Shown here piece by piece: positions 33,032-64,000 of a DNA stretch of 64,000 bases. The position numbers were made by a program, and so were the translations under genes. The DNA is from Lepus europaeus (Eukaryota; Chordata; Mammalia; Lagomorpha; Leporidae), in contig NC_084834.1 of NCBI RefSeq assembly GCF_033115175.1, positions 13,117,294-13,181,293 on the forward strand, read 5' to 3'. Each line of letters opens with the position of its first letter. The stretch's first letter is position 1. The notes under the pieces were generated by a model. That model was given only the letters and a program-made list of their open reading frames with translations, searched no databases and was not told where the DNA came from.

Positions 33032-33227
33032 GCTTTTAGCCCATCTGCCCAGAGCTAACGCAGCTGTCCTAAGACACTTGTTTTCATCATTATATGCAAT
33101 CTCACGTAATGCATCATACAATCAAATGACTACATCAAAGTTAGCTTTGTGCATCACCCCGAGCCTTCTGTGTGTCTGGCGATCTACTTCAACAAGCCCA
33201 GCCCTCGAAGGCGAATTGAGGAGAAAG
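33032..33227 (+). CDS. exon: RhoGAP domain, 'LP.N...L' to C-terminal motif (Asn replaced)
   Basis: A 196-bp exon, phase 2 in and 0 out, acceptor 'ttttttttgtgtttag', donor gtaatg. It encodes LLAHLPRANAAVLRHLF..., the strongly conserved RhoGAP 'LLxxLPxxNxxxLxxLF' helix, then NQMTTSKLALCITPSLL, matching the family 'NxMTxxNLAxxxxPxLL'. The conserved Asn of 'NLA' (catalytic-site residue in p50RhoGAP and others) is Lys here (AAG, 33138-33140). The end, SPALEGELRRK, matches the 'SPELENEFTKK' type end in ARHGAP20. With the lost arginine finger this makes two active-site changes. Confidence 0.85.
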
Positions 33228-34408: not shown

Positions 34409-34559
34409 ATTTCCCTTGTGGAGTTTATGATTGCAAGTTATCCCAGAATATTTGGAGATGACCAGAAGTCTAAGAAGAGCTGTATGAATTCCAAAAGAAA
34501 CTTTGGAGAGAGTAGCCGGCAAGTCATCGCCACTGCGGGGCAGAGTGCTGCCGGCCTAG
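34409..34559 (+). CDS. exon: end of RhoGAP domain and start of tail
   Basis: A 151-bp exon, phase 0 in and 1 out, acceptor 'cacccttttgtgtcacag', donor gtgaga. It encodes ISLVEFMIASYPRIFGDD, matching the last RhoGAP helix ('SLLIQFLIENxxRIFGEE' type in ARHGAP20), then a Lys/Ser-rich stretch ending ...AGL plus one base. From here ARHGAP20 would continue into a long C-terminal region. In this gene the next phase-compatible exon I can find is the first repeat exon at 41574. Confidence 0.82.
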
Positions 34560-40760: not shown

Positions 40761-41069
40761 CAGCTGCCTAAGAATTTCCCCCATGTCTCCCACATGCCGG
40801 GAGCGTCAGCGAGGGAGGGACATGACTAAGCATGGGCTGAACACGGCTCATGAGAACTGGGGCTGGCAGTAGTGTCCTGCAGGGACCAGAGAGTTCCTAG
40901 AGGTGTACTCACCTGGCCCCTCAGAGGAGACTGTGGTCTGGGTGAAATAAGGTTCTATCTTTGCTCCCACTGGAACACCAAGGTGGCACTTGCAAGTTCC
41001 TGCATCCTTTCACTTCACATGCCCTTTAACTTTCCCGTTTGTTGCAAAGTGATTCCTTCTCAAGAAATA

Positions 41070-41573
41070 AGTGCCTCTGCTATCAAGCTGTGATGGAACC
41101 GTGGATATGTGCCGAGGAAGGATGTGTCTCCTGGTTAAAGAGTGCCAGAATGCTAGTCAGGTTAACCGAGACTGCAAATTGTACTTCCCATTACACCTAG
41201 AGCTTACATGCACCACTACTTACATGAGGGTCTCCACTTGGCTTGAGCACTATAGATCATTAACGTGGCAAAACACACTGGAGAGTGGGATGAAACTAAA
41301 GCATAAGTGGCCCAACGTAGGGGGAAACTCGACACCGGCCATGGCACCTCCGCACCATGGCCCTGGTACCACCAGTTTCCATTCTCAGGGATACATTGTG
41401 GCCTAGGCACACACCAGTGCTGTCTCCGCACTGACCTAAGAACCCATATTAGGCATGAGGAAGTGTGGTGCTGGGAGAACTTTTCTCTGCCTGGTCCTCT
41501 AGGCAGAAACAGGTATGTTGCTGAAAAGACCCTTACTCAGACCAAGTATGCTATGTCTCTTCTTCTTCCGCAG
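41070..41573 (+). repeat. decayed partial 918-bp unit at the left edge of the array
   Basis: From about 41406 the sequence is alignable to the end of the 918-bp unit ('gcacacaccagtgctgtctc', 'gtggtgctgggagaac', 'ctgaaaagacccttactcag', 'accaagtatgctatgtctct'), but with many differences and small indels. Weaker matches reach further left ('gaggaaggatgtgtctcctgg' at about 41115 against the unit's 'ccaggaaggatgtgcttcctg'). This is the non-homogenised flank of the array. Confidence 0.65.
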
Positions 41574-41657
41574 ATGCCGAGCCTGACAACCGAGAACCAG
41601 TGCCGGACGTGCCACAGCCAGGCGTGAATATGAATGCTGAAACCAAGCCCCGCCACG
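41574..41657 (+). CDS. first (diverged) repeat exon, 28 residues
   Basis: An 84-bp exon with acceptor 'tcttcttcttccgcag' and donor gtaggg, phase 1-1, compatible with the 34409-34559 exon upstream and with every repeat exon downstream. The frame reads DAEPDNREPVPDVPQPG... and ends ...ETKPRH. It is clearly related to the 30-residue repeat (DTAEPGTREPLPDVPP...), with REP.PDVP shared, but two codons shorter and different in the second half. Likely the entry repeat that escaped homogenisation. Its 3' end lies at the sharp border between diverged and near-identical sequence. Confidence 0.7.
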
Positions 41658-42485
41658 GTAGGGGCCCGGGTGTCTTGTGTCCTCTGCCCCTGGGTGCCCG
41701 CGGGGTTGCCGGAGCTCCTGGAGCGAGAAGGGGGCTTTCCTAGTCCCTCCGGGACCGGGAAGCGGTCGCCCAGCGACTCCTGGTCCCGAACCCCTGGCCA
41801 GTGCTCTGGAGCTGCGGTGGCATCCTCGGCTCTCTGCCAGGAAGGATGTGCTTCCTGGCAGAGAGAGGGGCCGCGGTGCGAGTCGGGTGCTCCGACACGG
41901 GGCCGTGTGTGCTCCCGGGTTCTCAGCTTGGCTGCACGCTGCCTGGGCCTGTGTGCAAGGCGTCCGTTTCTCCCCGCTGGGGTCTCCTAACCCGTCCGGG
42001 AGGGGGCTATGCTTCCTGTTCCCCACGTCTGCTCCTGCCATGGCCCCGTCCGGTGCAGCAGTCCCACCAGCATGCCTTGAGTTGCCACGCAGGCTGCGAG
42101 TGCAGAAGGCTCCCGGGACCTGGCGTGGAGTGCCCCACTGCCCCTGGTGGCCCAGTGTGCGCAGGGGACTTAGGCGCGGGCACGCCGCGCTCCGCAAGGA
42201 TGGTCCTCTGGGCCTCTGCTTCTCCTGAGATGTCCTTGCCCCGGCCCCTCCCCGGCCCGGCCCTGGTGCCTGCCTTCAGTTTCCCTTCGGTGGGATTTTT
42301 TGTTGCGTAGGCACACGCCCGTGCTTCTCCTTACTGACCTAGGTACCCACGTTAGGCGAGGGGAGATGTGGGGCTGGGAGAACCTTTTCTGCCTGATCTT
42401 CTAGGCGGAGGCAGGTGTGTTGTCTGAAAAGACCCTCACTCAACTCAGGCCAAGTATGCTATGTACTCTCTCTCTTCTTCCGCAG

Positions 42486-45400
42486 ACACGGCGGAGCCCG
42501 GCACCCGGGAACCTCTTCCGGACGTGCCGCCTTCGCGCACGGATGCGCCCGACGTTTGCACCGAGCCCGACCACGGTAGGGGCCCGGGCGTCTTGTGTCC
42601 TCTGGCCCTGGGTGCCCGCGGGGTTGCCGGAGCTCCTGGAGCGAGAAGGGGGCTTTCCTAGTCCCTCCGGGACCGGGAAGCGGTCGCCCAGCGACTCCTG
42701 GTCCCGAACCCCTGGCCAGTGCTCTGGAGCTGCGGTGGCATCCTCGGCTCTCTGCCAGGAAGGATGTGCTTCCTGGCAGAGAGAGGGGCCGCGGTGCGAG
42801 TCGGGTGCTCCGACACGGGGCCGTGTGTGCTCCCGGGTTCTCAGCTTGGCTGCACGCTGCCTGGGCCTGTGTGCAAGGCGTCCGTTTCTCCCCGCTGGGG
42901 TCTCCTAACCCGTCCGGGAGGGGGCTATGCTTCCTGTTCCCCACGTCTGCTCCTGCCATGGCCCCGTCCGGTGCAGCAGTCCCACCAGCATGCCTTGAGT
43001 TGCCACGCAGGCTGCGAGTGCAGAAGGCTCCCGGGACCTGGCGTGGAGTGCCCCACTGCCCCTGGTGGCCCAGTGTGCGCAGGGGACTTAGGCGCGGGCA
43101 CGCCGCGCTCCGCAAGGATGGTCCTCTGGGCCTCTGCTTCTCCTGAGATGTCCTTGCCCCGGCCCCTCCCCGGCCCGGCCCTGGTGCCTGCCTTCAGTTT
43201 CCCTTCGGTGGGATTTTTTGTTGCGTAGGCACACGCCCGTGCTTCTCCTTACTGACCTAGGTACCCACGTTAGGCGAGGGGAGATGTGGGGCTGGGAGAA
43301 CCTTTTCTGCCTGATCTTCTAGGCGGAGGCAGGTGTGTTGTCTGAAAAGACCCTCACTCAACTCAGGCCAAGTATGCTATGTACTCTCTCTCTTCTTCCG
43401 CAGACACGGCGGAGCCCGGCACCCGGGAACCTCTTCCGGACGTGCCGCCTTCGCGCACGGATGCGCCCGACGTTTGCACCGAGCCCGACCACGGTAGGGG
43501 CCCGGGCGTCTTGTGTCCTCTGGCCCTGGGTGCCCGCGGGGTTGCCGGAGCTCCTGGAGCGAGAAGGGGGCTTTCCTAGTCCCTCCGGGACCGGGAAGCG
43601 GTCGCCCAGCGACTCCTGGTCCCGAACCCCTGGCCAGTGCTCTGGAGCTGCGGTGGCATCCTCGGCTCTCTGCCAGGAAGGATGTGCTTCCTGGCAGAGA
43701 GAGGGGCCGCGGTGCGAGTCGGGTGCTCCGACACGGGGCCGTGTGTGCTCCCGGGTTCTCAGCTTGGCTGCACGCTGCCTGGGCCTGTGTGCAAGGCGTC
43801 CGTTTCTCCCCGCTGGGGTCTCCTAACCCGTCCGGGAGGGGGCTATGCTTCCTGTTCCCCACGTCTGCTCCTGCCATGGCCCCGTCCGGTGCAGCAGTCC
43901 CACCAGCATGCCTTGAGTTGCCACGCAGGCTGCGAGTGCAGAAGGCTCCCGGGACCTGGCGTGGAGTGCCCCACTGCCCCTGGTGGCCCAGTGTGCGCAG
44001 GGGACTTAGGCGCGGGCACGCCGCGCTCCGCAAGGATGGTCCTCTGGGCCTCTGCTTCTCCTGAGATGTCCTTGCCCCGGCCCCTCCCCGGCCCGGCCCT
44101 GGTGCCTGCCTTCAGTTTCCCTTCGGTGGGATTTTTTGTTGCGTAGGCACACGCCCGTGCTTCTCCTTACTGACCTAGGTACCCACGTTAGGCGAGGGGA
44201 GATGTGGGGCTGGGAGAACCTTTTCTGCCTGATCTTCTAGGCGGAGGCAGGTGTGTTGTCTGAAAAGACCCTCACTCAACTCAGGCCAAGTATGCTATGT
44301 ACTCTCTCTCTTCTTCCGCAGACACGGCGGAGCCCGGCACCCGGGAACCTCTTCCGGACGTGCCGCCTTCGCGCACGGATGCGCCCGACGTTTGCACCGA
44401 GCCCGACCACGGTAGGGGCCCGGGCGTCTTGTGTCCTCTGGCCCTGGGTGCCCGCGGGGTTGCCGGAGCTCCTGGAGCGAGAAGGGGGCTTTCCTAGTCC
44501 CTCCGGGACCGGGAAGCGGTCGCCCAGCGACTCCTGGTCCCGAACCCCTGGCCAGTGCTCTGGAGCTGCGGTGGCATCCTCGGCTCTCTGCCAGGAAGGG
44601 TGTGCTTCCTGGCAGAGAGAGGGGCCGCGGTGCGAGTCGGGTGCTCCGACACGGGGCCGTGTGTGCTCCCGGGTTCTCAGCTTGGCTGCACGCTGCCTGG
44701 GCCTGTGTGCAAGGCGTCCGTTTCTCCCCGCTGGGGTCTCCTAACCCGTCCGGGAGGGGGCTATGCTTCCTGTTCCCCACGTCTGCTCCTGCCATGGCCC
44801 CGTCCGGTGCAGCAGTCCCACCAGCATGCCTTGAGTTGCCACGCAGGCTGCGAGTGCAGAAGGCTCCCGGGACCTGGCGTGGAGTGCCCCACTGCCCCTG
44901 GTGGCCCAGTGTGCGCAGGGGACTTAGGCGCGGGCACGCCGCGCTCCGCAAGGATGGTCCTCTGGGCCTCTGCTTCTCCTGAGATGTCCTTGCCCCGGCC
45001 CCTCCCCGGCCCGGCCCTGGTGCCTGCCTTCAGTTTCCCTTCGGTGGGATTTTTTGTTGCGTAGGCACACGCCCGTGCTTCTCCTTACTGACCTAGGTAC
45101 CCACGTTAGGCGAGGGGAGATGTGGGGCTGGGAGAACCTTTTCTGCCTGATCTTCTAGGCGGAGGCAGGTGTGTTGTCTGAAAAGACCCTCACTCAACTC
45201 AGGCCAAGTATGCTATGTACTCTCTCTCTTCTTCCGCAGACACGGCGGAGCCCGGCACCCGGGAACCTCTTCCGGACGTGCCGCCTTCGCGCACGGATGC
45301 GCCCGACGTTTGCACCGAGCCCGACCACGGTAGGGGCCCGGGCGTCTTGTGTCCTCTGGCCCTGGGTGCCCGCGGGGTTGCCGGAGCTCCTGGAGCGAGA

Positions 45401-48400
45401 AGGGGGCTTTCCTAGTCCCTCCGGGACCGGGAAGCGGTCGCCCAGCGACTCCTGGTCCCGAACCCCTGGCCAGTGCTCTGGAGCTGCGGTGGCATCCTCG
45501 GCTCTCTGCCAGGAAGGGTGTGCTTCCTGGCAGAGAGAGGGGCCGCGGTGCGAGTCGGGTGCTCCGACACGGGGCCGTGTGTGCTCCCGGGTTCTCAGCT
45601 TGGCTGCACGCTGCCTGGGCCTGTGTGCAAGGCATCCGTTTCTCCCCGCTGGGGTCTCCTAACCCGTCCGGGAGGGGGCTATGCTTCCTGTTCCCCACGT
45701 CTGCTCCTGCCATGGCCCCGTCCGGTGCAGCAGTCCCACCAGCATGCCTTGAGTTGCCACGCAGGCTGCGAGTGCAGAAGGCTCCCGGGACCTGGCGTGG
45801 AGTGCCCCACTGCCCCTGGTGGCCCAGTGTGCGCAGGGGACTTAGGCGCGGGCACGCCGCGCTCCGCAAGGATGGTCCTCTGGGCCTCTGCTTCTCCTGA
45901 GATGTCCTTGCCCCGGCCCCTCCCCGGCCCGGCCCTGGTGCCTGCCTTCAGTTTCCCTTCGGTGGGATTTTTTGTTGCGTAGGCACACGCCCGTGCTTCT
46001 CCTTACTGACCTAGGTACCCACGTTAGGCGAGGGGAGATGTGGGGCTGGGAGAACCTTTTCTGCCTGATCTTCTAGGCGGAGGCAGGTGTGTTGTCTGAA
46101 AAGACCCTCACTCAACTCAGGCCAAGTATGCTATGTACTCTCTCTCTTCTTCCGCAGACACGGCGGAGCCCGGCACCCGGGAACCTCTTCCGGACGTGCC
46201 GCCTTCGCGCACGGATGCGCCCGACGTTTGCACCGAGCCCGACCACGGTAGGGGCCCGGGCGTCTTGTGTCCTCTGGCCCTGGGTGCCCGCGGGGTTGCC
46301 GGAGCTCCTGGAGCGAGAAGGGGGCTTTCCTAGTCCCTCCGGGACCGGGAAGCGGTCGCCCAGCGACTCCTGGTCCCGAACCCCTGGCCAGTGCTCTGGA
46401 GCTGCGGTGGCATCCTCGGCTCTCTGCCAGGAAGGATGTGCTTCCTGGCAGAGAGAGGGGCCGCGGTGCGAGTCGGGTGCTCCGACACGGGGCCGTGTGT
46501 GCTCCCGGGTTCTCAGCTTGGCTGCACGCTGCCTGGGCCTGTGTGCAAGGCGTCCGTTTCTCCCCGCTGGGGTCTCCTAACCCGTCCGGGAGGGGGCTAT
46601 GCTTCCTGTTCCCCACGTCTGCTCCTGCCATGGCCCCGTCCGGTGCAGCAGTCCCACCAGCATGCCTTGAGTTGCCACGCAGGCTGCGAGTGCAGAAGGC
46701 TCCCGGGACCTGGCGTGGAGTGCCCCACTGCCCCTGGTGGCCCAGTGTGCGCAGGGGACTTAGGCGCGGGCACGCCGCGCTCCGCAAGGATGGTCCTCTG
46801 GGCCTCTGCTTCTCCTGAGATGTCCTTGCCCCGGCCCCTCCCCGGCCCGGCCCTGGTGCCTGCCTTCAGTTTCCCTTCGGTGGGATTTTTTGTTGCGTAG
46901 GCACACGCCCGTGCTTCTCCTTACTGACCTAGGTACCCACGTTAGGCGAGGGGAGATGTGGGGCTGGGAGAACCTTTTCTGCCTGATCTTCTAGGCGGAG
47001 GCAGGTGTGTTGTCTGAAAAGACCCTCACTCAACTCAGGCCAAGTATGCTATGTACTCTCTCTCTTCTTCCGCAGACACGGCGGAGCCCGGCACCAGGGA
47101 ACCTCTTCCGGACGTGCCGCCTTCGCGCACGGATGCGCCCGACGTTTGCACCGAGCCCGACCACGGTAGGGGCCCGGGCGTCTTGTGTCCTCTGGCCCTG
47201 GGTGCCCGCGGGGTTGCCGGAGCTCCTGGAGCGAGAAGGGGGCTTTCCTAGTCCCTCCGGGACCGGGAAGCGGTCGCCCAGCGACTCCTGGTCCCGAACC
47301 CCTGGCCAGTGCTCTGGAGCTGCGGTGGCATCCTCGGCTCTCTGCCAGGAAGGATGTGCTTCCTGGCAGAGAGAGGGGCCGCGGTGCGAGTCGGGTGCTC
47401 CGACACGGGGCCGTGTGTGCTCCCGGGTTCTCAGCTTGGCTGCACGCTGCCTGGGCCTGTGTGCAAGGCGTCCGTTTCTCCCCGCTGGGGTCTCCTAACC
47501 CGTCCGGGAGGGGGCTATGCTTCCTGTTCCCCACGTCTGCTCCTGCCATGGCCCCGTCCGGTGCAGCAGTCCCACCAGCATGCCTTGAGTTGCCACGCAG
47601 GCTGCGAGTGCAGAAGGCTCCCGGGACCTGGCGTGGAGTGCCCCACTGCCCCTGGTGGCCCAGTGTGCGCAGGGGACTTAGGCGCGGGCACGCCGCGCTC
47701 CGCAAGGATGGTCCTCTGGGCCTCTGCTTCTCCTGAGATGTCCTTGCCCCGGCCCCTCCCCGGCCCGGCCCTGGTGCCTGCCTTCAGTTTCCCTTCGGTG
47801 GGATTTTTTGTTGCGTAGGCACACGCCCGTGCTTCTCCTTACTGACCTAGGTACCCACGTTAGGCGAGGGGAGATGTGGGGCTGGGAGAACCTTTTCTGC
47901 CTGATCTTCTAGGCGGAGGCAGGTGTGTTGTCTGAAAAGACCCTCACTCAACTCAGGCCAAGTATGCTATGTACTCTCTCTCTTCTTCCGCAGACACGGC
48001 GGAGCCCGGCACCCGGGAACCTCTTCCGGACGTGCCGCCTTCGCGCACGGATGCGCCCGACGTTTGCACCGAGCCCGACCACGGTAGGGGCCCGGGCGTC
48101 TTGTGTCCTCTGGCCCTGGGTGCCCGCGGGGTTGCCGGAGCTCCTGGAGCGAGAAGGGGGCTTTCCTAGTCCCTCCGGGACCGGGAAGCGGTCGCCCAGC
48201 GACTCCTGGTCCCGAACCCCTGGCCAGTGCTCTGGAGCTGCGGTGGCATCCTCGGCTCTCTGCCAGGAAGGATGTGCTTCCTGGCAGAGAGAGGGGCCGC
48301 GGTGCGAGTCGAGTGCTCCGACACGGGGCCCTGTGTGCTCCCGGGTTCTCAGCTTGGCTGCACGCTGCCTGGGCCTGTGTGCAAGGCGTCCGTTTCTCCC

Positions 48401-51400
48401 CGCTGGGGTCTCCTAACCCGTCCGGGAGGGGGCTATGCTTCCTGTTCCCCACGTCTGCTCCTGCCATGGCCCCGTCCGGTGCAGCAGTCCCACCAGCATG
48501 CCTTGAGTTGCCACGCAGGCTGCGAGTGCAGAAGGCTCCCGGGACCTGGCGTGGAGTGCCCCACTGCCCCTGGTGGCCCAGTGTGCGCAGGGGACTTAGG
48601 CGCGGGCACGCCGCGCTCCGCAAGGATGGTCCTCTGGGCCTCTGCTTCTCCTGAGATGTCCTTGCCCCGGCCCCTCCCCGGCCCGGCCCTGGTGCCTGCC
48701 TTCAGTTTCCCTTCGGTGGGATTTTTTGTTGCGTAGGCACACGCCCGTGCTTCTCCTTACTGACCTAGGTACCCACGTTAGGCGAGGGGAGATGTGGGGC
48801 TGGGAGAACCTTTTCTGCCTGATCTTCTAGGCGGAGGCAGGTGTGTTGTCTGAAAAGACCCTCACTCAACTCAGGCCAAGTATGCTATGTACTCTCTCTC
48901 TTCTTCCGCAGACACGGCGGAGCCCGGCACCCGGGAACCTCTTCCGGACGTGCCGCCTTCGCGCACGGATGCGCCCGACGTTTGCACCGAGCCCGACCAC
49001 GGTAGGGGCCCGGGCGTCTTGTGTCCTCTGGCCCTGGGTGCCCGCGGGGTTGCCGGAGCTCCTGGAGCGAGAAGGGGGCTTTCCTAGTCCCTCTGGGACC
49101 GGGAAGCGGTCGCCCAGCGACTCCTGGTCCCGAACCCCTGGCCAGTGCTCTGGAGCTGCGGTGGCATCCTCGGCTCTCTGCCAGGAAGGGTGTGCTTCCT
49201 GGCAGAGAGAGGGGCCGCGGTGCGAGTCGGGTGCTCCGACACGGGGCCGTGTGTGCTCCCGGGTTCTCAGCTTGGCTGCACGCTGCCTGGGCCTGTGTGC
49301 AAGGCGTCCGTTTCTCCCCGCTGGGGTCTCCTAACCCGTCCGGGAGGGGGCTATGCTTCCTGTTCCCCACGTCTGCTCCTGCCATGGCCCCGTCCGGTGC
49401 AGCAGTCCCACCAGCATGCCTTGAGTTGCCACGCAGGCTGCGAGTGCAGAAGGCTCCCGGGACCTGGCGTGGAGTGCCCCACTGCCCCTGGTGGCCCAGT
49501 GTGCGCAGGGGACTTAGGCGCGGGCACGCCGCGCTCCGCAAGGATGGTCCTCTGGGCCTCTGCTTCTCCTGAGATGTCCTTGCCCCGGCCCCTCCCCGGC
49601 CCGGCCCTGGTGCCTGCCTTCAGTTTCCCTTCGGTGGGATTTTTTGTTGCGTAGGCACACGCCCGTGCTTCTCCTTACTGACCTAGGTACCCACGTTAGG
49701 CGAGGGGAGATGTGGGGCTGGGAGAACCTTTTCTGCCTGATCTTCTAGGCGGAGGCAGGTGTGTTGTCTGAAAAGACCCTCACTCAACTCAGGCCAAGTA
49801 TGCTATGTACTCTCTCTCTTCTTCCGCAGACACGGCGGAGCCCGGCACCCGGGAACCTCTTCCGGACGTGCCGTCTTCGCGCACGGATGCGCCCGACGTT
49901 TGCACCGAGCCCGACCACGGTAGGGGCCCGGGCGTCTTGTGTCCTCTGGCCCTGGGTGCCCGCGGGGTTGCCGGAGCTCCTGGAGCGAGAAGGGGGCTTT
50001 CCTAGTCCCTCCGGGACCGGGAAGCGGTCGCCCAGCGACTCCTGGTCCCGAACCCCTGGCCAGTGCTCTGGAGCTGCGGTGGCATCCTCGGCTCTCTGCC
50101 AGGAAGGGTGTGCTTCCTGGCAGAGAGAGGGGCCGCGGTGCGAGTCGGGTGCTCCGACACGGGGCCGTGTGTGCTCCCGGGTTCTCAGCTTGGCTGCACG
50201 CTGCCTGGGCCTGTGTGCAAGGCGTCCGTTTCTCCCCGCTGGGGTCTCCTAACCCGTCCGGGAGGGGGCTATGCTTCCTGTTCCCCACGTCTGCTCCTGC
50301 CATGGCCCCGTCCGGTGCAGCAGTCCCACCAGCATGCCTTGAGTTGCCACGCAGGCTGCGAGTGCAGAAGGCTCCCGGGACCTGGCGTGGAGTGCCCCAC
50401 TGCCCCTGGTGGCCCAGTGTGCGCAGGGGACTTAGGCGCGGGCACGCCGCGCTCCGCAAGGATGGTCCTCTGGGCCTCTGCTTCTCCTGAGATGTCCTTG
50501 CCCCGGCCCCTCCCCGGCCCGGCCCTGGTGCCTGCCTTCAGTTTCCCTTCGGTGGGATTTTTTGTTGCGTAGGCACACGCCCGTGCTTCTCCTTACTGAC
50601 CTAGGTACCCACGTTAGGCGAGGGGAGATGTGGGGCTGGGAGAACCTTTTCTGCCTGATCTTCTAGGCGGAGGCAGGTGTGTTGTCTGAAAAGACCCTCA
50701 CTCAACTCAGGCCAAGTATGCTATGTACTCTCTCTCTTCTTCCGCAGACACGGCGGAGCCCGGCACCCGGGAACCTCTTCCGGACGTGCCGCCTTCGCGC
50801 ACGGATGCGCCCGACGTTTGCACCGAGCCCGACCACGGTAGGGGCCCGGGCGTCTTGTGTCCTCTGGCCCTGGGTGCCCGCGGGGTTGCCGGAGCTCCTG
50901 GAGCGAGAAGGGGGCTTTCCTAGTCCCTCCGGGACCGGGAAGCGGTCGCCCAGCGACTCCTGGTCCCGAACCCCTGGCCAGTGCTCTGGAGCTGCGGTGG
51001 CATCCTCGGCTCTCTGCCAGGAAGGATGTGCTTCCTGGCAGAGAGAGGGGCCGCGGTGCGAGTCGGGTGCTCCGACACGGGGCCGTGTGTGCTCCCGGGT
51101 TCTCAGCTTGGCTGCACGCTGCCTGGGCCTGTGTGCAAGGCGTCCGTTTCTCCCCGCTGGGGTCTCCTAACCCGTCCGGGAGGGGGCTATGCTTCCTGTT
51201 CCCCACGTCTGCTCCTGCCATGGCCCCGTCCGGTGCAGCAGTCCCACCAGCATGCCTTGAGTTGCCACGCAGGCTGCGAGTGCAGAAGGCTCCCGGGACC
51301 TGGCGTGGAGTGCCCCACTGCCCCTGGTGGCCCAGTGTGCGCAGGGGACTTAGGCGCGGGCACGCCGCGCTCCGCAAGGATGGTCCTCTGGGCCTCTGCT

Positions 51401-54400
51401 TCTCCTGAGATGTCCTTGCCCCGGCCCCTCCCCGGCCCGGCCCTGGTGCCTGCCTTCAGTTTCCCTTCGGTGGGATTTTTTGTTGCGTAGGCACACGCCC
51501 GTGCTTCTCCTTACTGACCTAGGTACCCACGTTAGGCGAGGGGAGATGTGGGGCTGGGAGAACCTTTTCTGCCTGATCTTCTAGGCGGAGGCAGGTGTGT
51601 TGTCTGAAAAGACCCTCACTCAACTCAGGCCAAGTATGCTATGTACTCTCTCTCTTCTTCCGCAGACACGGCGGAGCCCGGCACCCGGGAACCTCTTCCG
51701 GACGTGCCGCCTTCGCGCACGGATGCGCCCGACGTTTGCACCGAGCCCGACCACGGTAGGGGCCCGGGCGTCTTGTGTCCTCTGGCCCTGGGTGCCCGCG
51801 GGGTTGCCGGAGCTCCTGGAGCGAGAAGGGGGCTTTCCTAGTCCCTCCGGGACCGGGAAGCGGTCGCCCAGCGACTCCTGGTCCCGAACCCCTGGCCAGT
51901 GCTCTGGAGCTGCGGTGGCATCCTCGGCTCTCTGCCAGGAAGGATGTGCTTCCTGGCAGAGAGAGGGGCCGCGGTGCGAGTCGGGTGCTCCGACACGGGG
52001 CCGTGTGTGCTCCCGGGTTCTCAGCTTGGCTGCACGCTGCCTGGGCCTGTGTGCAAGGCGTCCGTTTCTCCCCGCTGGGGTCTCCTAACCCGTCCGGGAG
52101 GGGGCTATGCTTCCTGTTCCCCACGTCTGCTCCTGCCATGGCCCCGTCCGGTGCAGCAGTCCCACCAGCATGCCTTGAGTTGCCACGCAGGCTGCGAGTG
52201 CAGAAGGCTCCCGGGACCTGGCGTGGAGTGCCCCACTGCCCCTGGTGGCCCAGTGTGCGCAGGGGACTTAGGCGCGGGCACGCCGCGCTCCGCAAGGATG
52301 GTCCTCTGGGCCTCTGCTTCTCCTGAGATGTCCTTGCCCCGGCCCCTCCCCGGCCCGGCCCTGGTGCCTGCCTTCAGTTTCCCTTCGGTGGGATTTTTTG
52401 TTGCGTAGGCACACGCCCGTGCTTCTCCTTACTGACCTAGGTACCCACGTTAGGCGAGGGGAGATGTGGGGCTGGGAGAACCTTTTCTGCCTGATCTTCT
52501 AGGCGGAGGCAGGTGTGTTGTCTGAAAAGACCCTCACTCAACTCAGGCCAAGTATGCTATGTACTCTCTCTCTTCTTCCGCAGACACGGCGGAGCCCGGC
52601 ACCCGGGAACCTCTTCCGGACGTGCCGCCTTCGCGCACGGATGCGCCCGACGTTTGCACCGAGCCCGACCACGGTAGGGGCCCGGGCGTCTTGTGTCCTC
52701 TGGCCCTGGGTGCCCGCGGGGTTGCCGGAGCTCCTGGAGCGAGAAGGGGGCTTTCCTAGTCCCTCCGGGACCGGGAAGCGGTCGCCCAGCGACTCCTGGT
52801 CCCGAACCCCTGGCCAGTGCTCTGGAGCTGCGGTGGCATCCTCGGCTCTCTGCCAGGAAGGATGTGCTTCCTGGCAGAGAGAGGGGCCGCGGTGCGAGTC
52901 GGGTGCTCCGACACGGGGCCCTGTGTGCTCCCGGGTTCTCAGCTTGGCTGCACGCTGCCTGGGCCTGTGTGCAAGGCGTCCGTTTCTCCCCGCTGGGGTC
53001 TCCTAACCCGTCCGGGAGGGGGCTATGCTTCCTGTTCCCCACGTCTGCTCCTGCCATGGCCCCGTCCGGTGCAGCAGTCCCACCAGCATGCCTTGAGTTG
53101 CCACGCAGGCTGCGAGTGCAGAAGGCTCCCGGGACCTGGCGTGGAGTGCCCCACTGCCCCTGGTGGCCCAGTGTGCGCAGGGGACTTAGGCGCGGGCACG
53201 CCGCGCTCCGCAAGGATGGTCCTCTGGGCCTCTGCTTCTCCTGAGATGTCCTTGCCCCGGCCCCTCCCCGGCCCGGCCCTGGTGCCTGCCTTCAGTTTCC
53301 CTTCGGTGGGATTTTTTGTTGCGTAGGCACACGCCCGTGCTTCTCCTTACTGACCTAGGTACCCACGTTAGGCGAGGGGAGATGTGGGGCTGGGAGAACC
53401 TTTTCTGCCTGATCTTCTAGGCGGAGGCAGGTGTGTTGTCTGAAAAGACCCTCACTCAACTCAGGCCAAGTATGCTATGTACTCTCTCTCTTCTTCCGCA
53501 GACACGGCGGAGCCCGGCACCCGGGAACCTCTTCCGGACGTGCCGCCTTCGCGCACGGATGCGCCCGACGTTTGCACCGAGCCCGACCACGGTAGGGGCC
53601 CGGGCGTCTTGTGTCCTCTGGCCCTGGGTGCCCGCGGGGTTGCCGGAGCTCCTGGAGCGAGAAGGGGGCTTTCCTAGTCCCTCCGGGACCGGGAAGCGGT
53701 CGCCCAGCGACTCCTGGTCCCGAACCCCTGGCCAGTGCTCTGGAGCTGCGGTGGCATCCTCGGCTCTCTGCCAGGAAGGGTGTGCTTCCTGGCAGAGAGA
53801 GGGGCCGCGGTGCGAGTCGGGTGCTCCGACACGGGGCCGTGTGTGCTCCCGGGTTCTCAGCTTGGCTGCACGCTGCCTGGGCCTGTGTGCAAGGCGTCCG
53901 TTTCTCCCCGCTGGGGTCTCCTAACCCGTCCGGGAGGGGGCTATGCTTCCTGTTCCCCACGTCTGCTCCTGCCATGGCCCCGTCCGGTGCAGCAGTCCCA
54001 CCAGCATGCCTTGAGTTGCCACGCAGGCTGCGAGTGCAGAAGGCTCCCGGGACCTGGCGTGGAGTGCCCCACTGCCCCTGGTGGCCCAGTGTGCGCAGGG
54101 GACTTAGGCGCGGGCACGCCGCGCTCCGCAAGGATGGTCCTCTGGGCCTCTGCTTCTCCTGAGATGTCCTTGCCCCGGCCCCTCCCCGGCCCGGCCCTGG
54201 TGCCTGCCTTCAGTTTCCCTTCGGTGGGATTTTTTGTTGCGTAGGCACACGCCCGTGCTTCTCCTTACTGACCTAGGTACCCACGTTAGGCGAGGGGAGA
54301 TGTGGGGCTGGGAGAACCTTTTCTGCCTGATCTTCTAGGCGGAGGCAGGTGTGTTGTCTGAAAAGACCCTCACTCAACTCAGGCCAAGTATGCTATGTAC

Positions 54401-57400
54401 TCTCTCTCTTCTTCCGCAGACACGGCGGAGCCCGGCACCCGGGAACCTCTTCCGGACGTGCCGCCTTCGCGCACGGATGCGCCCGACGTTTGCACCGAGC
54501 CCGACCACGGTAGGGGCCCGGGCGTCTTGTGTCCTCTGGCCCTGGGTGCCCGCGGGGTTGCCGGAGCTCCTGGAGCGAGAAGGGGGCTTTCCTAGTCCCT
54601 CCGGGACCGGGAAGCGGTCGCCCAGCGACTCCTGGTCCCGAACCCCTGGCCAGTGCTCTGGAGCTGCGGTGGCATCCTCGGCTCTCTGCCAGGAAGGGTG
54701 TGCTTCCTGGCAGAGAGAGGGGCCGCGGTGCGAGTCGGGTGCTCCGACACGGGGCCGTGTGTGCTCCCGGGTTCTCAGCTTGGCTGCACGCTGCCTGGGC
54801 CTGTGTGCAAGGCGTCCGTTTCTCCCCGCTGGGGTCTCCTAACCCGTCCGGGAGGGGGCTATGCTTCCTGTTCCCCACGTCTGCTCCTGCCATGGCCCCG
54901 TCCGGTGCAGCAGTCCCACCAGCATGCCTTGAGTTGCCACGCAGGCTGCGAGTGCAGAAGGCTCCCGGGACCTGGCGTGGAGTGCCCCACTGCCCCTGGT
55001 GGCCCAGTGTGCGCAGGGGACTTAGGCGCGGGCACGCCGCGCTCCGCAAGGATGGTCCTCTGGGCCTCTGCTTCTCCTGAGATGTCCTTGCCCCGGCCCC
55101 TCCCCGGCCCGGCCCTGGTGCCTGCCTTCAGTTTCCCTTCGGTGGGATTTTTTGTTGCGTAGGCACACGCCCGTGCTTCTCCTTACTGACCTAGGTACCC
55201 ACGTTAGGCGAGGGGAGATGTGGGGCTGGGAGAACCTTTTCTGCCTGATCTTCTAGGCGGAGGCAGGTGTGTTGTCTGAAAAGACCCTCACTCAACTCAG
55301 GCCAAGTATGCTATGTACTCTCTCTCTTCTTCCGCAGACACGGCGGAGCCCGGCACCCGGGAACCTCTTCCGGACGTGCCGCCTTCGCGCACGGATGCGC
55401 CCGACGTTTGCACCGAGCCCGACCACGGTAGGGGCCCGGGCGTCTTGTGTCCTCTGCCCCTGGGTGCCCGCGGGGTTGCCGGAGCTCCTGGAGCGAGAAG
55501 GGGGCTTTCCTAGTCCCTCCGGGACCGGGAAGCGGTCGCCCAGCGACTCCTGGTCCCGAACCCCTGGCCAGTGCTCTGGAGCTGCGGTGGCATCCTCGGC
55601 TCTCTGCCAGGAAGGGTGTGCTTCCTGGCAGAGAGAGGGGCCGCGGTGCGAGTCGGGTGCTCCGACACGGGGCCGTGTGTGCTCCCGGGTTCTCAGCTTG
55701 GCTGCACGCTGCCTGGGCCTGTGTGCAAGGCGTCCGTTTCTCCCCGCTGGGGTCTCCTAACCCGTCCGGGAGGGGGCTATGCTTCCTGTTCCCCACGTCT
55801 GCTCCTGCCATGGCCCCGTCCGGTGCAGCAGTCCCACCAGCATGCCTTGAGTTGCCACGCAGGCTGCGAGTGCAGAAGGCTCCCGGGACCTGGCGTGGAG
55901 TGCCCCACTGCCCCTGGTGGCCCAGTGTGCGCAGGGGACTTAGGCGCGGGCACGCCGCGCTCCGCAAGGATGGTCCTCTGGGCCTCTGCTTCTCCTGAGA
56001 TGTCCTTGCCCCGGCCCCTCCCCGGCCCGGCCCTGGTGCCTGCCTTCAGTTTCCCTTCGGTGGGATTTTTTGTTGCGTAGGCACACGCCCGTGCTTCTCC
56101 TTACTGACCTAGGTACCCACGTTAGGCGAGGGGAGATGTGGGGCTGGGAGAACCTTTTCTGCCTGATCTTCTAGGCGGAGGCAGGTGTGTTGTCTGAAAA
56201 GACCCTCACTCAACTCAGGCCAAGTATGCTATGTACTCTCTCTCTTCTTCCGCAGACACGGCGGAGCCCGGCACCCGGGAACCTCTTCCGGACGTGCCGC
56301 CTTCGCGCACGGATGCGCCCGACGTTTGCACCGAGCCCGACCACGGTAGGGGCCCGGGCGTCTTGTGTCCTCTGGCCCTGGGTGCCCGCGGGGTTGCCGG
56401 AGCTCCTGGAGCGAGAAGGGGGCTTTCCTAGTCCCTCCGGGACCGGGAAGCGGTCGCCCAGCGACTCCTGGTCCCGAACCCCTGGCCAGTGCTCTGGAGC
56501 TGCGGTGGCATCCTCGGCTCTCTGCCAGGAAGGGTGTGCTTCCTGGCAGAGAGAGGGGCCGCGGTGCGAGTCGGGTGCTCCGACACGGGGCCGTGTGTGC
56601 TCCCGGGTTCTCAGCTTGGCTGCACGCTGCCTGGGCCTGTGTGCAAGGCGTCCGTTTCTCCCCGCTGGGGTCTCCTAACCCGTCCGGGAGGGGGCTATGC
56701 TTCCTGTTCCCCACGTCTGCTCCTGCCATGGCCCCGTCCGGTGCAGCAGTCCCACCAGCATGCCTTGAGTTGCCACGCAGGCTGCGAGTGCAGAAGGCTC
56801 CCGGGACCTGGCGTGGAGTGCCCCACTGCCCCTGGTGGCCCAGTGTGCGCAGGGGACTTAGGCGCGGGCACGCCGCGCTCCGCAAGGATGGTCCTCTGGG
56901 CCTCTGCTTCTCCTGAGATGTCCTTGCCCCGGCCCCTCCCCGGCCCGGCCCTGGTGCCTGCCTTCAGTTTCCCTTCGGTGGGATTTTTTGTTGCGTAGGC
57001 ACACGCCCGTGCTTCTCCTTACTGACCTAGGTACCCACGTTAGGCGAGGGGAGATGTGGGGCTGGGAGAACCTTTTCTGCCTGATCTTCTAGGCGGAGGC
57101 AGGTGTGTTGTCTGAAAAGACCCTCACTCAACTCAGGCCAAGTATGCTATGTACTCTCTCTCTTCTTCCGCAGACACGGCGGAGCCCGGCACCCGGGAAC
57201 CTCTTCCGGACGTGCCGCCTTCGCGCACGGATGCGCCCGACGTTTGCACCGAGCCCGACCACGGTAGGGGCCCGGGCGTCTTGTGTCCTCTGGCCCTGGG
57301 TGCCCGCGGGGTTGCCGGAGCTCCTGGAGCGAGAAGGGGGCTTTCCTAGTCCCTCCGGGACCGGGAAGCGGTCGCCCAGCGACTCCTGGTCCCGAACCCC

Positions 57401-60400
57401 TGGCCAGTGCTCTGGAGCTGCGGTGGCATCCTCGGCTCTCTGCCAGGAAGGGTGTGCTTCCTGGCAGAGAGAGGGGCCGCGGTGCGAGTCGGGTGCTCCG
57501 ACACGGGGCCGTGTGTGCTCCCGGGTTCTCAGCTTGGCTGCACGCTGCCTGGGCCTGTGTGCAAGGCGTCCGTTTCTCCCCGCTGGGGTCTCCTAACCCG
57601 TCCGGGAGGGGGCTATGCTTCCTGTTCCCCACGTCTGCTCCTGCCATGGCCCCGTCCGGTGCAGCAGTCCCACCAGCATGCCTTGAGTTGCCACGCAGGC
57701 TGCGAGTGCAGAAGGCTCCCGGGACCTGGCGTGGAGTGCCCCACTGCCCCTGGTGGCCCAGTGTGCGCAGGGGACTTAGGCGCGGGCACGCCGCGCTCCG
57801 CAAGGATGGTCCTCTGGGCCTCTGCTTCTCCTGAGATGTCCTTGCCCCGGCCCCTCCCCGGCCCGGCCCTGGTGCCTGCCTTCAGTTTCCCTTCGGTGGG
57901 ATTTTTTGTTGCGTAGGCACACGCCCGTGCTTCTCCTTACTGACCTAGGTACCCACGTTAGGCGAGGGGAGATGTGGGGCTGGGAGAACCTTTTCTGCCT
58001 GATCTTCTAGGCGGAGGCAGGTGTGTTGTCTGAAAAGACCCTCACTCAACTCAGGCCAAGTATGCTATGTACTCTCTCTCTTCTTCCGCAGACACGGCGG
58101 AGCCCGGCACCCGGGAACCTCTTCCGGACGTGCCGCCTTCGCGCACGGATGCGCCCGACGTTTGCACCGAGCCCGACCACGGTAGGGGCCCGGGCGTCTT
58201 GTGTCCTCTGCCCCTGGGTGCCCGCGGGGTTGCCGGAGCTCCTGGAGCGAGAAGGGGGCTTTCCTAGTCCCTCTGGGACCGGGAAGCGGTCGCCCAGCGA
58301 CTCCTGGTCCCGAACCCCTGGCCAGTGCTCTGGAGCTGCGGTGGCATCCTCGGCTCTCTGCCAGGAAGGGTGTGCTTCCTGGCAGAGAGAGGGGCCGCGG
58401 TGCGAGTCGGGTGCTCCGACACGGGGCCGTGTGTGCTCCCGGGTTCTCAGCTTGGCTGCACGCTGCCTGGGCCTGTGTGCAAGGCGTCCGTTTCTCCCCG
58501 CTGGGGTCTCCTAACCCGTCCGGGAGGGGGCTATGCTTCCTGTTCCCCATGTCTGCTCCTGCCATGGCCCCGTCCGGTGCAGCAGTCCCACCAGCATGCC
58601 TTGAGTTGCCACGCAGGCTGCGAGTGCAGAAGGCTCCCGGGACCTGGCGTGGAGTGCCCCACTGCCCCTGGTGGCCCAGTGTGCGCAGGGGACTTAGGCG
58701 CGGGCACGCCGCGCTCCGCAAGGATGGTCCTCTGGGCCTCTGCTTCTCCTGAGATGTCCTTGCCCCGGCCCCTCCCCGGCCCGGCCCTGGTGCCTGCCTT
58801 CAGTTTCCCTTCGGTGGGATTTTTTGTTGCGTAGGCACACGCCCGTGCTTCTCCTTACTGACCTAGGTACCCACGTTAGGCGAGGGGAGATGTGGGGCTG
58901 GGAGAACCTTTTCTGCCTGATCTTCTAGGCGGAGGCAGGTGTGTTGTCTGAAAAGACCCTCACTCAACTCAGGCCAAGTATGCTATGTACTCTCTCTCTT
59001 CTTCCGCAGACACGGCGGAGCCCGGCACCCGGGAACCTCTTCCGGACGTGCCGCCTTCGCGCACGGATGCGCCCGACGTTTGCACCGAGCCCGACCACGG
59101 TAGGGGCCCGGGCGTCTTGTGTCCTCTGGCCCTGGGTGCCCGCGGGGTTGCCGGAGCTCCTGGAGCGAGAAGGGGGCTTTCCTAGTCCCTCCGGGACCGG
59201 GAAGCGGTCGCCCAGCGACTCCTGGTCCCGAACCCCTGGCCAGTGCTCTGGAGCTGCGGTGGCATCCTCGGCTCTCTGCCAGGAAGGGTGTGCTTCCTGG
59301 CAGAGAGAGGGGCCGCGGTGCGAGTCGGGTGCTCCGACACGGGGCCGTGTGTGCTCCCGGGTTCTCAGCTTGGCTGCACGCTGCCTGGGCCTGTGTGCAA
59401 GGCGTCCGTTTCTCCCCGCTGGGGTCTCCTAACCCGTCCGGGAGGGGGCTATGCTTCCTGTTCCCCACGTCTGCTCCTGCCATGGCCCCGTCCGGTGCAG
59501 CAGTCCCACCAGCATGCCTTGAGTTGCCACGCAGGCTGCGAGTGCAGAAGGCTCCCGGGACCTGGCGTGGAGTGCCCCACTGCCCCTGGTGGCCCAGTGT
59601 GCGCAGGGGACTTAGGCGCGGGCACGCCGCGCTCCGCAAGGATGGTCCTCTGGGCCTCTGCTTCTCCTGAGATGTCCTTGCCCCGGCCCCTCCCCGGCCC
59701 GGCCCTGGTGCCTGTCTTCAGTTTCCCTTCGGTGGGATTTTTTGTTGCGTAGGCACACGCCCGTGCTTCTCCTTACTGACCTAGGTACCCACGTTAGGCG
59801 AGGGGAGATGTGGGGCTGGGAGAACCTTTTCTGCCTGATCTTCTAGGCGGAGGCAGGTGTGTTGTCTGAAAAGACCCTCACTCAACTCAGGCCAAGTATG
59901 CTATGTACTCTCTCTCTTCTTCCGCAGACACGGCGGAGCCCGGCACCCGGGAACCTCTTCCGGACGTGCCGCCTTCGCGCACGGATGCGCCCGACGTTTG
60001 CACCGAGCCCGACCACGGTAGGGGCCCGGGCGTCTTGTGTCCTCTGCCCCTGGGTGCCCGCGGGGTTGCCGGAGCTCCTGGAGCGAGAAGGGGGCTTTCC
60101 TAGTCCCTCCGGGACCGGGAAGCGGTCGCCCAGCGACTCCTGGTCCCGAACCCCTGGCCAGTGCTCTGGAGCTGCGGTGGCATCCTCGGCTCTCTGCCAG
60201 GAAGGGTGTGCTTCCTGGCAGAGAGAGGGGCCGCGGTGCGAGTCGGGTGCTCCGACACGGGGCCGTGTGTGCTCCCGGGTTCTCAGCTTGGCTGCACGCT
60301 GCCTGGGCCTGTGTGCAAGGCGTCCGTTTCTCCCCGCTGGGGTCTCCTAACCCGTCCGGGAGGGGGCTATGCTTCCTGTTCCCCACGTCTGCTCCTGCCA

Positions 60401-63400
60401 TGGCCCCGTCCGGTGCAGCAGTCCCACCAGCATGCCTTGAGTTGCCACGCAGGCTGCGAGTGCAGAAGGCTCCCGGGACCTGGCGTGGAGTGCCCCACTG
60501 CCCCTGGTGGCCCAGTGTGCGCAGGGGACTTAGGCGCGGGCACGCCGCGCTCCGCAAGGATGGTCCTCTGGGCCTCTGCTTCTCCTGAGATGTCCTTGCC
60601 CCGGCCCCTCCCCGGCCCGGCCCTGGTGCCTGCCTTCAGTTTCCCTTCGGTGGGATTTTTTGTTGCGTAGGCACACGCCCGTGCTTCTCCTTACTGACCT
60701 AGGTACCCACGTTAGGCGAGGGGAGATGTGGGGCTGGGAGAACCTTTTCTGCCTGATCTTCTAGGCGGAGGCAGGTGTGTTGTCTGAAAAGACCCTCACT
60801 CAACTCAGGCCAAGTATGCTATGTACTCTCTCTCTTCTTCCGCAGACACGGCGGAGCCCGGCACCCGGGAACCTCTTCCGGACGTGCCGCCTTCGCGCAC
60901 GGATGCGCCCGACGTTTGCACCGAGCCCGACCACGGTAGGGGCCCGGGCGTCTTGTGTCCTCTGGCCCTGGGTGCCCGCGGGGTTGCCGGAGCTCCTGGA
61001 GCGAGAAGGGGGCTTTCCTAGTCCCTCCGGGACCGGGAAGCGGTCGCCCAGCGACTCCTGGTCCCGAACCCCTGGCCAGTGCTCTGGAGCTGCGGTGGCA
61101 TCCTCGGCTCTCTGCCAGGAAGGGTGTGCTTCCTGGCAGAGAGAGGGGCCGCGGTGCGAGTCGGGTGCTCCGACACGGGGCCGTGTGTGCTCCCGGGTTC
61201 TCAGCTTGGCTGCACGCTGCCTGGGCCTGTGTGCAAGGCGTCCGTTTCTCCCCGCTGGGGTCTCCTAACCCGTCCGGGAGGGGGCTATGCTTCCTGTTCC
61301 CCACGTCTGCTCCTGCCATGGCCCCGTCCGGTGCAGCAGTCCCACCAGCATGCCTTGAGTTGCCACGCAGGCTGCGAGTGCAGAAGGCTCCCGGGACCTG
61401 GCGTGGAGTGCCCCACTGCCCCTGGTGGCCCAGTGTGCGCAGGGGACTTAGGCGCGGGCACGCCGCGCTCCGCAAGGATGGTCCTCTGGGCCTCTGCTTC
61501 TCCTGAGATGTCCTTGCCCCGGCCCCTCCCCGGCCCGGCCCTGGTGCCTGCCTTCAGTTTCCCTTCGGTGGGATTTTTTGTTGCGTAGGCACACGCCCGT
61601 GCTTCTCCTTACTGACCTAGGTACCCACGTTAGGCGAGGGGAGATGTGGGGCTGGGAGAACCTTTTCTGCCTGATCTTCTAGGCGGAGGCAGGTGTGTTG
61701 TCTGAAAAGACCCTCACTCAACTCAGGCCAAGTATGCTATGTACTCTCTCTCTTCTTCCGCAGACACGGCGGAGCCCGGCACCCGGGAACCTCTTCCGGA
61801 CGTGCCGCCTTCGCGCACGGATGCGCCCGACGTTTGCACCGAGCCCGACCACGGTAGGGGCCCGGGCGTCTTGTGTCCTCTGGCCCTGGGTGCCCGCGGG
61901 GTTGCCGGAGCTCCTGGAGCGAGAAGGGGGCTTTCCTAGTCCCTCCGGGACCGGGAAGCGGTCGCCCAGCGACTCCTGGTCCCGAACCCCTGGCCAGTGC
62001 TCTGGAGCTGCGGTGGCATCCTCGGCTCTCTGCCAGGAAGGGTGTGCTTCCTGGCAGAGAGAGGGGCCGCGGTGCGAGTCGGGTGCTCCGACACGGGGCC
62101 GTGTGTGCTCCCGGGTTCTCAGCTTGGCTGCACGCTGCCTGGGCCTGTGTGCAAGGCGTCCGTTTCTCCCCGCTGGGGTCTCCTAACCCGTCCGGGAGGG
62201 GGCTATGCTTCCTGTTCCCCACGTCTGCTCCTGCCATGGCCCCGTCCGGTGCAGCAGTCCCACCAGCATGCCTTGAGTTGCCACGCAGGCTGCGAGTGCA
62301 GAAGGCTCCCGGGACCTGGCGTGGAGTGCCCCACTGCCCCTGGTGGCCCAGTGTGCGCAGGGGACTTAGGCGCGGGCACGCCGCGCTCCGCAAGGATGGT
62401 CCTCTGGGCCTCTGCTTCTCCTGAGATGTCCTTGCCCCGGCCCCTCCCCGGCCCGGCCCTGGTGCCTGCCTTCAGTTTCCCTTCGGTGGGATTTTTTGTT
62501 GCGTAGGCACACGCCCGTGCTTCTCCTTACTGACCTAGGTACCCACGTTAGGCGAGGGGAGATGTGGGGCTGGGAGAACCTTTTCTGCCTGATCTTCTAG
62601 GCGGAGGCAGGTGTGTTGTCTGAAAAGACCCTCACTCAACTCAGGCCAAGTATGCTATGTACTCTCTCTCTTCTTCCGCAGACACGGCGGAGCCCGGCAC
62701 CCGGGAACCTCTTCCGGACGTGCCGCCTTCGCGCACGGATGCGCCCGACGTTTGCACCGAGCCCGACCACGGTAGGGGCCCGGGCGTCTTGTGTCCTCTG
62801 CCCCTGGGTGCCCGCGGGGTTGCCGGAGCTCCTGGAGCGAGAAGGGGGCTTTCCTAGTCCCTCCGGGACCGGGAAGCGGTCGCCCAGCGACTCCTGGTCC
62901 CGAACCCCTGGCCAGTGCTCTGGAGCTGCGGTGGCATCCTCGGCTCTCTGCCAGGAAGGGTGTGCTTCCTGGCAGAGAGAGGGGCCGCGGTGCGAGTCGG
63001 GTGCTCCGACACGGGGCCGTGTGTGCTCCCGGGTTCTCAGCTTGGCTGCACGCTGCCTGGGCCTGTGTGCAAGGCGTCCGTTTCTCCCCGCTGGGGTCTC
63101 CTAACCCGTCCGGGAGGGGGCTATGCTTCCTGTTCCCCACGTCTGCTCCTGCCATGGCCCCGTCCGGTGCAGCAGTCCCACCAGCATGCCTTGAGTTGCC
63201 ACGCAGGCTGCGAGTGCAGAAGGCTCCCGGGACCTGGCGTGGAGTGCCCCACTGCCCCTGGTGGCCCAGTGTGCGCAGGGGACTTAGGCGCGGGCACGCC
63301 GCGCTCCGCAAGGATGGTCCTCTGGGCCTCTGCTTCTCCTGAGATGTCCTTGCCCCGGCCCCTCCCCGGCCCGGCCCTGGTGCCTGCCTTCAGTTTCCCT

Positions 63401-63689
63401 TCGGTGGGATTTTTTGTTGCGTAGGCACACGCCCGTGCTTCTCCTTACTGACCTAGGTACCCACGTTAGGCGAGGGGAGATGTGGGGCTGGGAGAACCTT
63501 TTCTGCCTGATCTTCTAGGCGGAGGCAGGTGTGTTGTCTGAAAAGACCCTCACTCAACTCAGGCCAAGTATGCTATGTACTCTCTCTCTTCTTCCGCAGA
63601 CACGGCGGAGCCCGGCACCCGGGAACCTCTTCCGGACGTGCCGCCTTCGCGCACGGATGCGCCCGACGTTTGCACCGAGCCCGACCACG
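42486..63689 (+). CDS. 24 tandem repeat exons, 90 bp each (30 residues each)
   Basis: Exon starts are 42486 + 918k for k = 0 to 23: 42486, 43404, 44322, 45240, 46158, 47076, 47994, 48912, 49830, 50748, 51666, 52584, 53502, 54420, 55338, 56256, 57174, 58092, 59010, 59928, 60846, 61764, 62682, 63600; each ends 89 bases later. The acceptor is a strong pyrimidine tract (ctctctctcttcttccgcag), with a branch-site-like 'ctcaac' about 55 bases upstream; the donor is gtaggg. Phase is 1-1, so any number can be joined. Each encodes DTAEPGTREP, then LPDVPPSRTD, then APDVCTEPDH: eight Asp/Glu against two Arg, seven Pro, one Cys. The tail is expected to be disordered and strongly acidic. Only two of the 24 copies carry a base change. 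I do not recognise this repeat from a known protein. Splicing of all copies is inferred. Confidence 0.7.
42748..42783 (+). repeat. perfect inverted repeat in each repeat intron (first homogeneous copy shown)
   Basis: Arms of 15 bases (ctctctgccaggaag / cttcctggcagagag) with a 6-base loop (gatgtg or ggtgtg). The same element lies in every complete unit, including the intron after the diverged exon, and recurs each 918 bp to the right edge. The arms are identical in all copies read; the loop holds the main A/G variant. In RNA it would form a stable hairpin about 170 bases into the intron. Confidence 0.9.
47076..47165 (+). CDS. repeat exon 6, synonymous variant
   Basis: Same exon with Arg codon 8 changed from CGG to AGG (47096-47098). 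The protein is unchanged. It is one of only two exon variants in the array. Confidence 0.7.
49830..49919 (+). CDS. repeat exon 9, Pro-to-Ser variant
   Basis: Same exon with CCT to TCT at 49874-49876, giving ...PDVPSSRTD in place of ...PDVPPSRTD. This is the only amino-acid change among the 24 copies. Confidence 0.7.
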
Positions 63690-64000
63690 GTAGGGGCCCG
63701 GGCGTCTTGTGTCCTCTGGCCCTGGGTGCCCGCGGGGTTGCCGGAGCTCCTGGAGCGAGAAGGGGGCTTTCCTAGTCCCTCCGGGACCGGGAAGCGGTCG
63801 CCCAGCGACTCCTGGTCCCGAACCCCTGGCCAGTGCTCTGGAGCTGCGGTGGCATCCTCGGCTCTCTGCCAGGAAGGGTGTGCTTCCTGGCAGAGAGAGG
63901 GGCCGCGGTGCGAGTCGGGTGCTCCGACACGGGGCCGTGTGTGCTCCCGGGTTCTCAGCTTGGCTGCACGCTGCCTGGGCCTGTGTGCAAGGCGTCCGTT

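Follow-up and report, generated by a model that had tools for sequence, protein, structure and literature searches.

A 64,000-nucleotide stretch of the hare (Lepus europaeus) genome (assembly GCF_033115175.1, contig NC_084834.1, forward-strand positions 13,117,294 to 13,181,293), hereafter the window, ends in a homogenised tandem array of 918-bp units that lies downstream of RhoGAP exons of a gene resembling ARHGAP20. We read the array as an intron-containing coding variable number tandem repeat (VNTR) of this ARHGAP20-like gene, in which a tail exon together with its intron has been amplified to at least 24 units, and we give this reading a probability of about 0.72. The array itself is far beyond chance and is real. 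Among open-licence papers we found no description of the hare ARHGAP20-like gene or of the repeated exon; the papers that a search for such proteins turned up concern, to judge by their titles, a butterfly, cattle and rat cells. The array and its upstream edge are laid out as follows, in window positions:

41041..41573, + strand: end of the intron before E1, a diverged homologue of the array intron forming a single-copy edge (similarity to the unit)
41574..41657, + strand: E1, a divergent 84-bp founder exon, phase 1-1 (27/28 residues as in the hare protein P0005)
41642..64000, + strand: homogenised 918-bp array, running off the window (self-comparison of units)
42486..63689, + strand: R1-R24, 24 exons of 90 bp at 42486 + 918*i, with 828-bp introns (common splice strings, phase)

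Common acceptor and donor strings were present in 24 of 24 units and delimit exons of exactly 90 bp (i = 0 to 23 in the series above, the last, R24, at 63600-63689), each unit having its own 828-bp intron. After R24, 311 bases of the following intron are left, so that the array leaves the window open-ended and the copy number of 24 is a lower bound. The self-identity of 41501-64000 at lag 918 was 99.35%, and the 23 complete units, every one 918 bp long, are 99.8% alike, differing pairwise by a mean of 0.177% and a maximum of 0.65%, with 34 of the 253 pairs identical. Ten positions vary across R1-R24, two in the 90 exonic and eight in the 828 intronic bases, and 22 of the 24 exon copies are identical, R6 carrying a silent change and R9 one Pro-to-Ser replacement. 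The preliminary description had reported 24 near-identical 90-bp exons with good splice sites and symmetric phase, a unit consisting of a whole exon plus intron that preserves frame and splice sites, and an array continuing past the end of the window, all of which we could reproduce; near-identity holds for R1-R24 but does not extend to the divergent 84-bp exon at 41574. No higher-order repeat was seen in the array, and an Rfam search returned nothing at gathering scores. Tandem Repeats Finder did not list the 918-bp array because its longest period was set at 500.

When ranked against bases 20-41500 with an approximate matrix, the repeat acceptor scored above 99.9% of 2857 AG sites and the repeat donor above 97.2% of 2210 GT sites. 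The exon is symmetric (phase 1-1), and the upstream exon chain supplies phase 1. A single-exon minisatellite of the mucin type was ruled out because every repeat is flanked by splice sites of its own and accompanied by an 828-bp intron. An open reading frame continuing through the units was likewise rejected: the unit length of 918 is a multiple of 3, but at least three stops per unit occur in every one of the six frames. Every intron copy also contains an inverted repeat at about unit positions 262-298 (e.g., 42747-42783) with a 15-bp stem and a 6-base loop, predicted at -35.9 kcal/mol for a 50-base piece, and variable position 279 falls at its loop. At 42405-42414 and in the homologous units, a 10-bp stretch is flanked by a fair acceptor and by a donor scoring above the repeat exon's own, and would be out of frame as an exon.

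The upstream edge of the array bears on its age. The array boundary lies at about 41642, so that only the last ~16 bases of E1 and the intron behind it belong to the homogenised part (unit positions 75-918 match 41642-42485 at 99.4%). The intron before E1 is a diverged homologue of the unit, with 41373-41573 about 80% identical to unit positions 710-918 and 41041-41172 scoring 33 against unit positions 198-331, compared with a maximum of 20 in 30 shuffles. E1 encodes 28 residues, has the same phase as the repeats and is diverged from R1-R24. Since both E1 and the intron preceding it are diverged homologues of the unit, E1 is the edge of the array that was spared homogenisation, and the first duplication long predates the present copies. 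A signal near 40.8 kb that might be a decayed earlier exon was too weak to claim.

The tail exon and its 828-bp intron were presumably amplified by unequal exchange and gene conversion, and the near-identity of the units, together with the clustering of variant 279A, which occurs in 9 of 13 units numbered 0-12 and in 0 of 11 units numbered 13-23 (p 0.0006, for a variant picked after the pattern had been seen), fits local unequal exchange and conversion. Because the units are so alike, copy number probably differs between alleles. The repeat unit is 66.7% G+C, with a CpG observed/expected ratio of 0.68 versus 0.24 in bases 1-41000. Between the array and its single-copy edge we counted 38 AT-to-GC and 12 GC-to-AT changes (p 0.0003; in 326 columns retained for their local identity, with the direction of change assumed), an excess that fits biased conversion, and G+C-biased conversion may have lifted the array to 67% G+C.

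By sequence comparison, the gene that contains the array is a lagomorph ARHGAP20-like gene. The best PDB match of the RhoGAP part was 3msx (ARHGAP20; 2e-42), the next match reaching 2.2e-11; TAGAP as the nearest relative was rejected, as 3msx is far ahead, though TAGAP itself was not among the PDB matches. The named proteins closest to this gene come from hare and rabbit. P0005, a Lepus europaeus protein annotated as rho GTPase-activating protein 20-like, follows the window one exon after another up to and including E1, at 99.5% over 205 residues, without being identical to it: the residue next to the Gln of the arginine-finger site, on its C-terminal side, is Lys in the window and Ile in P0005, and in E1 the window has Asn for Thr. 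A ten-row tree groups the window with P0005 and a second hare protein, P0001, which carries a TAGAP-like name from its source (93/95, below the starred level), and the rabbit protein P0010 with hare P0007 (88/93). Pfam places an RA domain in P0005, P0006, P0007 and P0008.

Six exons with AG/GT flanks precede E1 and, joined with E1 and R1-R24, give a stop-free reading of 1059 residues:

22237..22416, + strand: exon for the second half of the RA domain, phase 1-1 (98% to hare P0005 residues 99-160; AG/GT)
26272..26408, + strand: linker exon at the expected start of the RhoGAP domain, phase 1-0 (100% to hare P0005 residues 160-205)
27621..27782, + strand: RhoGAP exon A, phase 0-0, with Gln at the arginine-finger site (98% to P0005; TAGAP/ARHGAP20 match)
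32200..32306, + strand: RhoGAP exon B, phase 0-2 (PDB and P0005 comparison, joined reading)
33032..33227, + strand: RhoGAP exon C, phase 2-0 (Pfam RhoGAP 1e-14, frame starting at 26601)
34409..34559, + strand: RhoGAP exon D, phase 0-1 (P0005 comparison, joined reading)

The preliminary description had spoken, without coordinates, of six RhoGAP exons on the same strand and in compatible phase; strand and phase stand, but of the six exons found here only four encode RhoGAP, the other two being, from the match to P0005, the second half of the RA domain and the linker. When ARHGAP20/TAGAP sequence was used as the query to look for an earlier start of the RhoGAP domain, nothing beyond the listed exons was found, the linker exon being added through P0005, and Pfam detected only RhoGAP in the three + strand frames of 11600-41601. 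Reading through the donor of exon D produces an alternative end like that of rabbit P0008 (34406-34672, 88%). The terminal exons of P0001, P0005 and P0006 had no convincing match in the window; a weak likeness of the P0005 tail occurs at 35845-35889 (8/15 residues). By homology to P0006 and P0007, which end in GDLMLPWSTN, a terminal exon would be expected past 64000. The intron between exon D and E1 also holds an isolated G+C-rich patch in AT-rich surroundings (37500-37900; 62% G+C, 21 CpG) and, at 36670-36980, a translation that we take to be like the end of LINE-1 ORF2. Near the start of the window, 877-1076 is an assembly gap of 200 N, and the sequence before it is possibly not adjacent in the genome.

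The domain is RhoGAP-type as first proposed (Pfam 1e-14; 3msx 2e-42), but its catalytic arginine is replaced by Gln. The same residue was found in eight of eight lagomorph-type sequences that reach the site (the window, P0003, P0005, P0006, P0007, P0008, P0010 and P0012), while Arg is present in 3msx, P0009, P0014 and P0015, Ser in the grey seal protein P0011 and Ile in the Arvicanthis protein P0013. The motif LLKDCLR retains its Lys and Arg in the window. RhoGAPs lacking the arginine finger are described as inactive (PMC8305018), and because of the Gln at this site, GTPase-activating (GAP) activity of the predicted protein is unlikely.

Evidence for coding came both from the window and from annotated relatives. 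Over 13 core codons, the differences between E1 and the repeat affect 6 of 10.7 synonymous sites and 3 of 28.3 non-synonymous sites (Fisher p 0.008). The predicted 30-residue repeat peptide contains 5 Asp, 3 Glu and 7 Pro, with a net charge of -6, and 24 copies would amount to 720 residues. Hare P0001 (285 aa) comprises exons B, C, D and E1 followed by two 30-residue repeats that share 26 of 30 residues with the window repeat. The four differences from R1-R24 all fall in one five-residue patch (VTGVL in P0001, APDVC in the window), and the other 25 residues are the same. Rabbit P0010 (RHG20 isoform X4, 856 aa) has twelve tandem 26-residue repeats after the RhoGAP domain, and its tail matches read-through into the window intron at 19 of 21 residues after E1 and 18 of 21 after R1, so that an intron comes after at least its last repeat copy. 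A second rabbit protein, P0012 (LOC103350841 isoform X7), carries nine repeats in the same place, each of them 29 or 42 residues long. The core REP[LV]PDV occurs 25 times in the window model (E1 plus R1-R24), 12 times in P0010, three times in P0001, twice in P0006 and once each in P0005 and P0007. Since P0001 and P0010 are annotated with the same junctions, the coding reading is supported from outside the window, and inclusion of the repeat exons in mRNA and protein is predicted in these two proteins only.

Several observations weigh against the coding VNTR. Some of them favor its strongest rival, which we regard as unlikely, namely that the end of the gene lies upstream of E1 or directly behind it and that the array is a macrosatellite, intronic or 3', which splicing seldom or never includes, its exon-like pieces being remnants preserved by homogenisation rather than selection. 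In P0005, E1 is followed by a different tail and the end of the protein, and P0008 does not reach E1, since it reads through the exon D donor. The sequence from exon D to E1 contains seven AATAAA signals (35377-39979), and neither AATAAA nor ATTAAA was found within 41642-64000. The unit has the composition of a CpG island (67% G+C, CpG observed/expected 0.68), as a macrosatellite would, 65% of its 90-bp windows are open in phase 1, so that a single open 90-bp exon is weak evidence, and within the array variable positions are no scarcer in the exon than in the intron (2/90 versus 8/828), so that the repeats give no sign of present constraint. Divergence between units was uncorrelated with distance along the array (Mantel r 0.07, p 0.22). 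P0005 residues 1-98 were not found in the window; the exons encoding them (PH and the first half of RA) may lie upstream. The REP[LV]PDV core is absent from the sister paralogue P0012. P0001, whose model stops after two repeats, P0005 and the remaining named relatives all seem to be automatic predictions, and false junctions between tandem repeats are a known annotation error, demonstrated for NBPF20 (PMC10632439). Against a macrosatellite stand the two and twelve repeats annotated as spliced in P0001 and P0010, the preservation of splice sites and open phase in all 24 units, the synonymous excess between E1 and the repeat, and the conservation of the core in paralogues.

It is very unlikely that an assembler expanded a few true units into the array, as the 99.8% unit identity, the scaffolded nature of the assembly (the 200-N gap) and the two repeats of L. 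europaeus P0001 might suggest; the ten variable positions are spread, the units differ singly without block repeats, 219 of 253 pairs differ, and rabbit P0010, from an independent assembly, has twelve repeats. That the array matters as DNA, for example as a CTCF-type insulator array of CpG-island-like units in which coding is incidental, is scarcely credible: the raised CpG ratio (0.68 versus 0.24 upstream), one CTCF-core-like match per unit and the 15-bp hairpin would fit, but a CTCF-like match arises by chance in 9% of shuffled units, and the tail repeats are coding in annotated relatives.

If the array is a coding VNTR, the repeat exons would be spliced head to tail, each unit adding 30 residues of an acidic, proline-rich, probably disordered tail, and any exon copy number would keep the frame because the exon is symmetric. 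The tail would then set the copy number of the REP[LV]PDV core as well as the bulk and charge of the chain. Without the arginine finger, the protein may serve as a Rho GTPase scaffold or decoy, or in some other role, rather than speed up GTP hydrolysis; we infer a scaffold or decoy with adjustable tail length.

Repeat numbers differ among the paralogues, with no fewer than 24 x 30 residues here, 12 x 26 in rabbit P0010 and 9 x 29/42 in rabbit P0012. A broader proposal, which we regard as distinctly improbable, is that lagomorph ARHGAP20-like genes form a GAP-dead family in which the tail exon was amplified independently in several paralogues and each array was homogenised to its own version of a conserved core together with a hypervariable patch (APDVC here, VTGVL in P0001). 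The fast turnover of patch and tail length would then be consistent with an arms race, such as one in sperm. TAGAP, a related Rho regulator, is a distorter of the mouse t-haplotype (PMC6394906), a link that we treat as a lead and not as evidence. The grey seal and Arvicanthis proteins P0011 and P0013, both predicted as ARHGAP20-like, have several RhoGAP copies per chain and no Arg at the finger site, and the ARHGAP20-like family seems prone to internal duplication elsewhere.

Genes of comparable layout exist. The PEVK region of titin is built from many small exons of about 28 residues each, which form a proline- and acid-rich disordered chain, and its exons are diverged, unlike those of the homogenised hare array. 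The rabbit proteins P0010 and P0012 belong to the same family as the hare gene and carry tandem tail repeats after the RhoGAP domain, but they differ from it in repeat sequence, length and number and lie on other branches of the tree. The preliminary claim that no described gene has this layout is contradicted by two systems of the same kind, LPA KIV-2, a 5.6-kb unit with two exons and 1 to about 40 copies (PMC11462820), and NBPF/Olduvai (DUF1220), a tandem unit of about 1.6 kb with two exons (PMC9584774). KIV-2 of apolipoprotein(a), like the hare array, is a coding VNTR whose highly homologous units each comprise exon and intron, but its 5.6-kb, two-exon unit encodes a kringle domain, whereas the 918-bp hare unit has one 90-bp exon encoding a short acidic peptide. 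NBPF/Olduvai shares the tandem exon-plus-intron units inside a gene and differs in having two exons per unit and 3-mer higher-order repeats, where the hare has one exon and none were seen. On the coding reading, the hare array is a genuine coding VNTR with introns, belongs to a rapidly changing family that is probably GAP-dead, and is no new category; what is new here is that the unit is small and has a single exon, that its peptide is acidic, that homogeneity is near-perfect across 24 or more copies, and that tail exons have been amplified repeatedly, in several paralogues of one lagomorph family.

The hare locus carries a warning that automatic gene models truncate such arrays, as with the two repeats of P0001. 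If the array is fully spliced, it would be a natural system in which the length of a protein tail is set by exon copy number, and a compact (918-bp) counterpart of LPA KIV-2 in an animal family that includes the rabbit, a laboratory species. It would allow study of the way in which splicing stays in order across at least 24 identical exons and introns, together with the joint homogenisation of exon and intron by conversion and the accompanying rise in G+C, and it would raise the question of why, in a RhoGAP family without the catalytic arginine, more than one paralogue has amplified the same tail exon.

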